Below are positions 35,809 through 39,372 of a stretch of DNA of 64,000 bases, one piece after another (the first letter of the stretch is position 1; the number at the start of each line of letters is the position of its first letter). Source of the DNA: Candidatus Saccharimonadota bacterium (lineage in GTDB: Bacteria > Patescibacteriota > Saccharimonadia > Saccharimonadales > Saccharimonadaceae); contig JAFWHC010000003.1 in the NCBI GenBank assembly GCA_017512095.1, positions 1-64,000 of the forward strand, read 5' to 3'. The notes beneath the pieces were generated by a model, which saw only the letters and a program-made list of their open reading frames with translations, was not told the origin of the DNA and did no database searches. The position numbers and the translations under genes are program-made.

Positions 35809-36993
35809 ATGGCAAATTTTGACCGTTCCAAACCGCACATCAACGTCGGTACCATGGGTCACGTCGACCACGGTAAAACCACTTTGACTGCTGCGATTAC
35901 TTCCGTCTTGGCGAAAAAACTTCCGTCTGACGTTAACAAACCTGTCGCTTACGACCAAATCGACAACGCTCCTGAGGAAAAGGCCCGTGGTATCACCATC
36001 GCTACCTCCCACCAAGAGTACGAATCCGAAAAGCGTCACTACGCTCACGTCGACATGCCTGGTCACGCCGACTACATTAAAAACATGATTACCGGTGCCG
36101 CTCAAGTTGATGGCGCTATCCTTGTCGTTGCTGCAAACGACGGTCCGCTTCCACAAACTCGTGAGCACGTCCTCCTTGCGCACCAAGTGAACGTTCCAAA
36201 AATCATTGTCTTCTTGAACAAGATGGACCTCGCTGATCCAGAACTCGTCGAACTTGTCGAGATGGACGTCCGCGAACTTCTCAACAAGTACGGCTTCGAT
36301 GGCGACAACGCCCCAATCATCAAGGGTTCCGCTACCAAAGCCCTCGAAGGCGACCCAGAGAACGAACAGGCTATCATGGACCTCGTTCACGCTATGGACG
36401 AATACTTCGACATTCCTGAACACGATCTTGACAAGCCGTTCCTCATGCCTATTGAAGACGTCTTCTCCATCAAGGGTCGTGGTACTGTTGCTACCGGCCG
36501 TATCGAGCAAGGTGTCGTGAAACTCAACGACGAAGTTGAAATCGTTGGTCTCCGCGAAACCCAAAAATCCGTCGTTACCGGTATCGAAGCCTTCCACAAG
36601 ACTCTCGACCAAGGTCAAGCTGGCGATAACGCTGGTCTCCTTCTCCGCGGTATCGAACGCGAGCAAATCGAACGTGGTCAAGTCATCGCTGCTCCTGGCA
36701 CCATCACTCCACACACCGAGTTTGAGGCCCAGGTCTACATCCTCAAGAAAGAGGAAGGCGGCCGCCACACTCCGTTTGCTAAGGGTTACAAGCCACAGTT
36801 CTACTTCCGCACGACTGACGTCACCGGTGAAGTTGAACTTCCTGCTGACAAGGAAATCGTCATGCCTGGCGACCAAGTCACTTTCAACGTGAAACTTCTC
36901 GCCCCAGTCGCCATGAACAACAACGACCGCTTCGCTATCCGCGAAGGTGGCAAGACCGTCGGTTCTGGTGTTATTACCAAGGTCATCAAGTAG
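35809..36993 (+). CDS. tuf: Translation elongation factor Tu
   Basis: A 394-residue EF-Tu that brings aminoacyl-tRNA to the ribosome. G1 is GHVDHGKTT, switch I ends [10 protein letters not shown]3 is DMPGHADY and G4 is NKMD. Domains II and III are complete. Codons are strongly biased (GGT, GTC, AAG, CGT), as expected for a very highly expressed gene, and clearly unlike the neighbours. It is not in an str operon here; it stands alone with its own promoter, leader hairpin and terminator. Confidence 0.98.
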
Positions 36994-37116: not shown

Positions 37117-37638
37117 ATGAATATCAAATCTAAGAAGGGCTTCACTATTATCGAGGTCGTGCTTGTGCTTGCCATCGCGGGTCTTATCTTCCTCATGGTC
37201 TTCGTTGCGCTTCCGACCATGCAGCGCAGCCAGAGGGATACCCAGCGCAGGAACGATTACGCCGCCTTCGCTGCGAACATCACGAACTACCTAACAAATA
37301 ACAATGGCAACTTACCAAAAGCTGGTGCCACGCTCGACCCGAAAAAATATGTCAACGATGCTGGTACAGATGGTGCAGGAAAAACCTATTCAATTACTGT
37401 TGTAACATGCACAAAAACATCTGTGACAGTTGATGGTGTTGCCTATGCTAATTCATGTGGGAACTCTGGAATTAATCCATTAACTGTGATGAATCAAAAT
37501 GCTGCACCGCAGATTTATTTGGTTCTCAAGGCAAAGTGTAACACCGTCCAAGGGCTCACAATGACCTCGGCAGGAAATCGCGACTTTGCGGTTCTTGGCC
37601 AGCTTGAATCTGGCGTGTTCTGTCAAGACAATGTTTAA
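37117..37638 (+). CDS. Type IV pilin, expressed copy of an invertible pair
   Basis: A 173-residue prepilin. The short leader ends in glycine 8, the processing site is G|FTIIEVV with the key glutamate at +5 (E13), and a 20-residue hydrophobic helix follows. Residues 30-42 are encoded by a perfect 38-bp repeat that recurs inverted at 38152-38189. From residue 43 on the sequence differs from, but is homologous to, the silent copy: both keep RRNDYA-FAANIT, LDPKKY, GTD-AG and the ending LGQLESGV-CQDNV. The head (promoter, leader, helix) is thus constant and the body exchangeable. An in-frame start at 37051 lies in the promoter and is rejected. Pilins of this type polymerise into adhesive pili. Confidence 0.88.
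   Translation: MNIKSKKGFTIIEVVLVLAIAGLIFLMVFVALPTMQRSQRDTQRRNDYAAFAANITNYLTNNNGNLPKAGATLDPKKYVNDAGTDGAGKTYSITVVTCTKTSVTVDGVAYANSCGNSGINPLTVMNQNAAPQIYLVLKAKCNTVQGLTMTSAGNRDFAVLGQLESGVFCQDNV
37205..37242 (+). repeat. 38-bp inverted repeat, left copy (predicted inversion site)
   Basis: Perfect reverse complement of 38152-38189. It encodes pilin residues 30-42. It contains TGCGCT-N11-AGCGCA, a possible pair of recombinase arms. Identity stops abruptly at both ends, while the downstream codons differ at many synonymous sites. Confidence 0.9.
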
Positions 37639-37660
37639 TCTTTTCTAGGCATAACTGCGA

Positions 37661-37690
37661 AAAATCTCCCCATGGAAGCGGGGAGATTTT
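37661..37690. terminator. Bidirectional terminator at the centre of the invertible segment
   Basis: AAAATCTCCCC (37661-37671) and GGGGAGATTTT (37680-37690) pair perfectly over 11 bp. Outer AACTGCGA and TTCGCAGTT add pairs. It lies between the converging expressed and silent pilin bodies and serves either orientation. Confidence 0.85.
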
Positions 37691-37716
37691 CTGGTTCGCA
37701 GTTTCTTTTAGAAAGG

Positions 37717-38189
37717 CTAGACGTTGTCTTGGCAATAAACGCCGGACTCGAGTTGACCGAGCAGGGCGTAGTCTCGATTACCGCTGCTTGCTTTGACAGT
37801 TCCTTGTTCGTCGCCGCACGCAGCACCCTTGACGATGACAACACGAGGGTCGGAGTTTTGGGTCATCTCTGTCATCACGCCGTTAGTGAGGGCGCCGGTA
37901 AGGCCGTTTGTACATTGTTGTCCTGCGGTGCTTTTGTCGCATTTGATAACCGCAATGTAGTAAGTGTGCCCGGCAGTATCGGTCCCGCTTTCATTGATAT
38001 ACTTCTTTGGATCAAGACCGTGGGAGCTAATCTGACTTACACCACTACTGTCGACGTAGCTCCAGGAGCTGTCGCTTGGGAGTCTACCGTTGTTGTTAGT
38101 GATATAGCCTGTGATGTTTGCGGCGAACGATGCGTAGTCATTGCGTCTTGCGGTATCCCTCTGGCTGCGCTGCATGGTCGGAAGCGCAA
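37717..38189 (-). pseudogene. Silent pilin body cassette lacking leader and membrane helix
   Basis: On the minus strand 152 codons from an internal Met are homologous to residues 35-173 of the expressed pilin (QRSQRDTARRNDYASFAANIT, LDPKKYINESGTD, LGQLESGVYCQDNV). The homology begins exactly at the 38-bp repeat. Upstream of it the frame reads into a TAG, with no leader peptide, SD or promoter of its own. The cassette overlaps the 3' end of the recombinase gene in another frame. Inversion between the repeats would join it to the head at 37117 and give a 186-residue pilin. It is therefore a stored alternative rather than a decayed gene; the reading frame is fully open. Confidence 0.85.
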
Positions 38190-39133
38190 GCAGCTAAAAT
38201 AAGCGCATCGTTATGACCTAAAACGTGACTATACCGTTTTAAAACTGTCGCCTGCGTATCGCCAGAAACTTCTGCCACGACCGGAAGTGACACCCCGCCC
38301 GCAATCAGCCGTGAAATGTAAGTATGGCGAAACTCATGCAATCTGTATCTTGGCAACCCAAGCTCATCACAAACCCTCCCGAACACTTGCCGGACGGCTT
38401 GCGGAGAAACGTCGAAAATCCGAACAGGGGTATCACCTCTATCCATTTGCGCAGATTGCTTCCGCGCTCTAAACGCATGGATTTCATCCAAAAACTCCCG
38501 AAAATCAGTCGTAAGTATTGGTATTTCTCGTATTTTTCCGTTCTTTGTCTCTTTTATCACTCCGAAATCCGACAGATAAGATTTATCAACTCTTACTCGC
38601 CAAATATCTTCATTGACTTTCTTAAAATTCTCCGACCCAAGCGCCAGTGCCTCACCAATCCTCACTCCGGTATTATATAAAAGCATAAACAAAAACCGAT
38701 ATTTCCGATATAGTTCAACCCCTCCGCGCCAATACTCATGTTCCTCAAACCAACGCATAATCCGCAAAAAGTCTTCGTGCTTAACTACTCTGGCGCTCGC
38801 CCCCAGAGAAAATTTCGGGCCTTCCAAGCGAGCTGCCAGTGAATATCGAACTAATCCTCGCCTGTACGCCAAGTTAAGTAACTTCCTTAAAGTCGTATTG
38901 AGTCCATAGATTGTCTCGGGCGCATAACCAGACTCGCGCATCTTTAAAACCATCTGCTCGTATTGCGAGACCGAAAGTCGCTCTATCCGTGTCGTCTCGG
39001 GAATGAATTGTGCCAACATCTTAAAAGACGTTTCCGTATTTTTGATGGTTTTCGGCGAAAATCCCTGCACTTTTGCTCGCTCAAGCCAAACCCCCATCGC
39101 CATTGCTAAAGTTGCTCGACGGAATAAAACCAT
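38138..39133 (-). CDS. Tyrosine recombinase, probable pilin invertase
   Basis: A 331-residue Xer/integrase-family recombinase. An N-terminal SAM-like core-binding domain spans about 10-95. The catalytic residues are R158 (NTGVRIGEA), a lysine near 200, H266 and R269 (LHEFRH), D292 where many relatives have H or W, and nucleophile Y301 (KRYSHV). Codons 316-327 are written in the right copy of the 38-bp repeat, and the stop lies inside the silent pilin cassette. Inversion would change the tail from RKTQ to a 19-residue tail starting PAQERLRR. Adjacency and overlap make it the natural invertase, by analogy with Rci of R64 shufflons; this is inferred. Confidence 0.85.
   Translation of the reverse strand: MVLFRRATLAMAMGVWLERAKVQGFSPKTIKNTETSFKMLAQFIPETTRIERLSVSQYEQMVLKMRESGYAPETIYGLNTTLRKLLNLAYRRGLVRYSLAARLEGPKFSLGASARVVKHEDFLRIMRWFEEHEYWRGGVELYRKYRFLFMLLYNTGVRIGEALALGSENFKKVNEDIWRVRVDKSYLSDFGVIKETKNGKIREIPILTTDFREFLDEIHAFRARKQSAQMDRGDTPVRIFDVSPQAVRQVFGRVCDELGLPRYRLHEFRHTYISRLIAGGVSLPVVAEVSGDTQATVLKRYSHVLGHNDALILAACASDHAAQPEGYRKTQ
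38152..38189 (-). repeat. 38-bp inverted repeat, right copy (predicted inversion site)
   Basis: Perfect reverse complement of 37205-37242. Read in one frame it belongs to the silent pilin cassette, in another to the recombinase C-terminus. Confidence 0.9.
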
Positions 39134-39138
39134 AGAAA

Positions 39139-39168
39139 TCTCCTTTTTATGTCTAGGAGACTATTTTA
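39139..39168 (-). promoter_or_regulatory. Recombinase -10 box and SD-occluding hairpin
   Basis: On the minus strand TAAAAT (39168-39163), then a transcript predicted to start near 39156. TCTCCT (39160-39155) pairs with AGGAGA (39144-39139), which is the SD region in AAGGAG. The ribosome site would be masked from the first bases of the mRNA. Confidence 0.6.
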
Positions 39169-39171
39169 CCG

Positions 39172-39372
39172 CTATTTCGAACTCAAATGCCAATGATTCC
39201 CGAACTCGCATTTATAAACCGTCAAAGCGGGCGCATGATGGTCGTGCTCCGCAATTCTCGCCGCCACTTCTGCCTCTTCGCGCGAATGATAAACAATCTT
39301 ATGCGACTCACCCACCCAACATCTTTCCGGCTCAAACCCGCTCAATTTATTCACGTCAAAATGTCTACTCAT
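39172..39372 (-). CDS. Small conserved-looking protein, unknown
   Basis: A 66-residue protein ending in YKCEFGNHWHLSSK, with a His-rich middle (EHDHHAPALTV). The last part, one cysteine with three histidines/aromatics, looks like a small metal-binding or DNA-associated module, but I do not recognise a family. It is divergent from the DUF362 gene with only 14 bp between the two start codons, and lies immediately upstream of the recombinase, whose -10 overlaps its end. The good extended -10 and the codon style make it a real gene. Confidence 0.65.
   Translation of the reverse strand: MSRHFDVNKLSGFEPERCWVGESHKIVYHSREEAEVAARIAEHDHHAPALTVYKCEFGNHWHLSSK

Follow-up and report, generated by a model that had tools for sequence, protein, structure and literature searches.

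The window, by which we mean the whole 64,000-nucleotide stretch of DNA that was analysed, probably carries a two-state type IV pilin inversion switch run by a tyrosine recombinase, in which the change that inversion would bring to the C-terminal tail of the enzyme is most likely a by-product. The locus belongs to a 0.62-Mb genome (8 contigs) and comprises the following features:

35809-36993, plus strand: EF-Tu, left flank
37117-37638, plus strand: expressed type IV pilin, 173 aa, with a class III signal (KKGFTIIE) and an N_methyl domain (PF07963)
37205-37242, plus strand: left repeat copy, within the expressed pilin, in codons for ..LPTMQRSQRDT
37242-37301, plus strand: source DNA of the alternative 19-codon tail (PAQERLRRLRCEHHELPNK, TAA stop) that follows from in-silico inversion
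37660-37691, no strand assigned: palindrome resembling a terminator, AAAAATCTCCCC..GGGGAGATTTT, lying between the convergent pilin bodies, read by eye and a weak match
37717-38175, minus strand: silent pilin body, a 152-aa frame lacking both signal and N-terminal helix; it shares the recombinase strand and begins within the last recombinase codons
38138-38152, minus strand: present recombinase tail, codons 328-331 (RKTQ) and TGA, in DNA that also encodes TARRND of the silent pilin
38152-38189, minus strand: right repeat copy, encoding recombinase residues 316-327 and, in the other frame, the start of the silent pilin body
38138-39133, minus strand: tyrosine recombinase gene (PF00589), 331 aa, ATG at 39133 and stop at 38138-38140
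39172-39372, minus strand: small conserved gene, 66 aa, right flank of the cassette-recombinase unit

The expressed pilin and the recombinase are convergent; the silent pilin body occupies the space between them and is on the strand of the recombinase. The repeat is a 38-bp exact inverted repeat (TTGCGCTTCCGACCATGCAGCGCAGCCAGAGGGATACC), the two copies of which are separated by 909 bp. In the recombinase frame, the right copy begins with the third base of codon 315, continues through the whole codons 316-327 and closes on the first base of 328. The recombinase frame takes the third base of each pilin codon and the first two of the next; the enzyme ends GGA TAC CGC AAG ACG CAA TGA, where the pilin frame reads ..RDTARRND. 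The initial annotation had pointed out both the passage of the recombinase frame through codons 316-327 to the tail RKTQ and the coding of the 38 bp for two proteins in two frames, and its coordinates and translations all hold.

The inverted arrangement was built in silico and translated. Both frames stay open: the pilin remains an intact ORF of 186 aa (173 aa at present), and the recombinase becomes 346 aa long, with 19 codons past the repeat, ending PAQERLRRLRCEHHELPNK at what is now the TAA of 37299-37301. The lengths of 331 and 346 residues proposed earlier for the two states, and the stop codon proposed for the second, are thus reproduced. The longer tail exceeds the shorter by 15 residues and is basic.

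On the recombinase strand, the silent body follows the recombinase gene, and its ATG is inside the last recombinase codons. Transcripts of the recombinase could thus extend over it, and it might even be translated from them. Four other genomes of the genus (L076, L078, L079 and L080) correspond to an empty site at window positions 37635-39172, showing EF-Tu, a pilin and the small 66-aa gene, with neither silent body nor recombinase between the pilin and the 66-aa gene. Since these four genomes lack the insert, the silent body and the recombinase appear to be a unit added beside a resident pilin.

Residues 140-304 of the recombinase match the Phage_integrase catalytic domain (PF00589, E-value = 4.7e-14), and alignment locates the catalytic residues at R158, K197/K200, H266, R269 and Y301. 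In an alignment of 16 sequences R158, H266, R269 and Y301 are retained, H266 being nearly invariant. The Gly-His box is Gly-Asp (G291 D292) both here and in the related enzyme of a second genome of the genus, G257: the third catalytic position, usually histidine in the family, is an aspartate. Near the catalytic tyrosine, the Ser-Gly-Asp at this position (window residues 291-292; G257 locus L002, 1462-2388) is thus common to two recombinases that are only 44% identical. Foldseek matches the fold to the Tn1549 integrase, XerH and Cre. An identity with the XerC/XerD enzymes of housekeeping dimer resolution was rejected, the NCBIfam scores being 53 and 50 bits against cut-offs of 335 and 330. At 331 aa the enzyme is only slightly longer than Xer types. 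An Xer-like recombinase gene lies a few kb from the pilins in many genomes of the genus (L044-L073).

Further evidence comes from G257, which encodes an orthologous recombinase 43-44% identical to the window enzyme. Its geometry is that of the window: the 3' end of the recombinase runs through a repeat into a silent pilin body that faces an expressed pilin. The recombinase frame crosses a 33-bp exact repeat and ends PEGYRS* within the silent body, and a terminator-like palindrome (AAAAATACCCCTCGCGAGGGGTATTTTT) lies between the two pilin bodies at the place equivalent to that in the window. The locus occupies a different chromosomal place, its neighbours being TrmD and an Obg-like gene (both named by motif only), not EF-Tu. 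In-silico inversion again leaves the pilin and the recombinase open, changing the tail from RS to AKTK. A whole-genome pattern search allowing 2 mismatches found exactly two repeat copies in each of the two genomes (the window genome, G000, and G257). Because G257 has the identical layout with a diverged recombinase, we take the overlap of recombinase and repeat to be a feature common to the locus in two species, its conservation resting on two cases and on one genome per species. The repeat and its read-through architecture, recurring in this diverged relative, are in our judgement beyond chance. Further orthologues were found in none of 174 genus, 295 family, 393 order and 380 phylum genomes; besides the G257 ortholog, the genus search gave three weak domain matches. 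A scan of GTDB contigs for the recombinase returned one unrelated recombinase only, and a scan of viral contigs returned distant integrases only. The repeat was not found in viral contigs.

In each genome the two copies of the repeat match exactly (38/38 in the window, 33/33 in G257), but between the genomes they differ at 4 of 33 bases. In the pilin arms beyond the repeat, likeness falls to about 75%; identity is confined to a short block of 33-38 bp with abrupt ends. Exchange between the copies is required, because they share changes within a lineage yet differ between genomes; the pattern supports inversion or conversion, indirectly. All four base differences between the species' repeats alter a recombinase residue, while of the three pilin codons affected two remain synonymous. 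The pilin frame therefore appears to dominate over the recombinase frame in the repeat, as judged from only four changes. An extra constraint on the repeat codons was considered and dropped: synonymous-site conservation is higher in the repeat (6 of 8 identical codons, as opposed to 59 of 123), but the excess over background is not significant (p = 0.16-0.23). For the crossover, a dyad core is likewise not convincing. The structure in the window is weak, its best 9-7-9 match having an uncorrected p of about 0.03 among many tests, and there is no clear core in the G257 repeat.

We propose that the adjacent tyrosine recombinase would recombine the two inverted 38-bp sites, one within the pilin gene past the N-terminal helix, the other within the 3' end of its own gene. 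Inversion would leave the pilin N-terminus constant and exchange the variable body that follows it. As the right site sits in the recombinase reading frame, every inversion would also swap the few recombinase codons past the site, the enzyme taking its stop codon from the adjoining cassette. Being nearly complete before the site, the enzyme would tolerate whichever tail that cassette supplies. The assignment of the inversion to this recombinase is suggested by its adjacency, by co-occurrence in two species and by the retained catalytic residues, and we infer that inversion takes place in living cells.

Other pilin loci of the genus show a different organisation. In G268 (L055, contig C3, 4849-5982) a complete pilin is faced by a silent body that lacks the signal helix, and the inverted repeat there measures 126 nt (96%). 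No dedicated recombinase lies directly beside it, and we regard the locus as a further one for pilin variation, based on long repeats. In G392 (L053, contig C14, 6046-9522) a full pilin and two truncated bodies in mixed orientation are accompanied by a perfect inverted repeat of 512 nt and by numerous shorter inverted repeats. This looks like a multi-cassette pilin variation locus, or an assembly duplication (contamination estimate 7%). Across the genus (L044-L073), many genomes have two or three different full-length pilins adjacent to one another, often convergent.

Such loci lend some weight to another account of the window, in which homologous recombination or gene conversion keeps the repeats identical and the recombinase is left over from an integrative element that came in together with the silent pilin body. 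Elsewhere in the genus, pilin bodies that are silent or duplicated occur with long inverted repeats (126 nt at 96% in G268, 512 nt at 100% in G392) and with no such recombinase adjoining, the cassette and recombinase of the window resemble an insertion, and the Gly-His box is altered. However, identity in the window is confined to an abrupt 33-38 bp block, unlike the long tracts of G268 and G392, and the recombinase is intact, keeps its other catalytic residues and recurs in G257 with equal geometry. We consider this account unlikely.

The initial annotation had further suggested that the state-dependent tail could bias the direction or rate of switching, and this part of its reading is not supported. 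The tail pairs are RKTQ and 19 residues in the window versus RS and AKTK in G257, where both tails are short (2 and 4 residues past Gly-Tyr). Since inversion in G257 changes RS to AKTK, a contrast between long and short tails is not conserved. Nor do matching cassettes supply matching tails. In both genomes the body next to the recombinase is of the TARRND type and that of the expressed gene of the TQRRND type, and the silent bodies, 59-62% identical between the two species, give RKTQ in one and RS in the other.

The structure models point the same way. In the AlphaFold model of the 331-aa window form, of moderate quality (mean pLDDT 73.7), the final helix ends at residue 317 and residues 318-331 have a pLDDT below 50; in the G257 enzyme the final helix ends at 301 of 309 residues, with a pLDDT below 50 for 297-309. 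The repeat-coded C-terminal region, which follows the catalytic tyrosine and the last helix, is thus predicted to be largely disordered in both enzymes, and the catalytic domain and last predicted helix would be complete, or nearly so, ahead of the state-dependent residues.

Chance suffices to explain how long the alternative tail is. Among 65 pilins of the genus without the system, the equivalent frame runs for at most 4 codons in 45 and for at least 16 codons in 17, and 35% of random pairs of these pilins differ by at least 15 codons. A stop arises in the tail frame where a codon ending in T precedes GAY (e.g. Asn AAT before Asp); the expressed copy of the window uses AAC, and so its tail frame remains open. 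The view that the open alternative frame is remarkable in itself was accordingly set aside, since such a frame depends on codon choice and is common in genus pilins. Because the catalytic part is nearly complete earlier and the pilin codons set the length, the tail difference is most likely a tolerated by-product, and we infer that the tail is neutral.

A state-dependent feedback, in which the 346-aa and 331-aa forms differ in activity or site preference and thereby bias the direction or rate of switching, does have precedents. Integration of phage Mx8 replaces the 3' end of int and alters integrase activity (PMC6070905), and since such a 3'-end swap has that effect, a modulatory role of the tail is conceivable here; in shufflon invertases of the Rci type, cooperative binding relies on an additional C-terminal domain (PMC11852207). 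The 15-residue difference in the window and the basic character of the long tail would also suit it. Yet the two short tails of G257, the unlike tails from matching cassettes, the predicted disorder of the C-terminal stretch and a length gap expected from pilin coding make such feedback quite improbable. Still more speculative is the idea that re-tailing at each flip acts as a built-in memory of the switch state, setting the rate or direction of the next flip; we give it very little credence. We also think it very unlikely that the locus is locked, having inverted in the past and no longer doing so, with the silent body a fixed pseudogene: both genomes are indeed in one state, but a random switch puts two genomes in one state half the time, and the silent bodies are open, with no stop up to the conserved C-terminus, at 59-62% identity between species.

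We thus retain the two-state pilin switch with a by-product tail as the probable reading. In cultivated Saccharibacteria, to which the genome appears related by its size and gene content, type IV pili mediate host binding (PMC12206443), and a switch of the pilin body in such a reduced genome, if true, would open a way for obligate episymbionts to vary their host range or antigens. No paper joining Saccharibacteria, pilin and inversion was found in the literature collection searched. One short DNA block would here be at once the presumed recombination site, pilin code and recombinase code, and the overlap offers a clean test case for the question whether a recombinase is unaffected when its own product rewrites its tail.

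In Moraxella, inversion by Piv swaps the type IV pilin body behind a fixed N-terminus, which is the likeness to the present locus. The difference lies in the enzyme: Piv belongs to the Piv/MooV (IS110-like) family, while the window enzyme is a PF00589 tyrosine recombinase with Arg, His, Arg and Tyr present. The original report of the Moraxella inversion is given as of 1988 in a citation within PMC5903667.

In the R64 shufflon, Rci exchanges the C-terminal portion of pilV, a type IV pilus protein, by inversion, with the recombinase encoded alongside, a constant N-terminus and short sites within coding sequence (PMC11852207). The present locus shares these traits: an adjacent tyrosine recombinase accompanies a pilus protein whose C-terminal part is exchanged, with frames intact, when the segment is inverted in silico in either genome. 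Four segments and seven sites make up the shufflon, whereas here there is one segment with two sites, in G000 as in G257. Moreover, rci is co-directional with pilV (L084), its 3' end pointing away from the shufflon and its C-terminus not overlapping the sites, and the pilin here is an ordinary short one.

For the overlap itself the parallel is phage Mx8, in which attP lies inside int and integration gives the gene a new 3' end with altered integrase activity (PMC6070905); the integrases of Mx8 and SSV extend across attP (PMC4383910, Islander). If the repeat is the recombination site, it lies inside the recombinase frame in two species, and recombination would likewise give the enzyme a new 3' end. 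Mx8 differs in that a prophage integrates into the chromosome, as against a reversible inversion of about 1 kb touching only residues after 327, and in that the effect on activity was measured there, whereas the present system is read from sequence. By analogy, the best reading is that the locus would work like an R64 shufflon reduced to one segment, with Mx8 as the precedent for an altered C-terminus.
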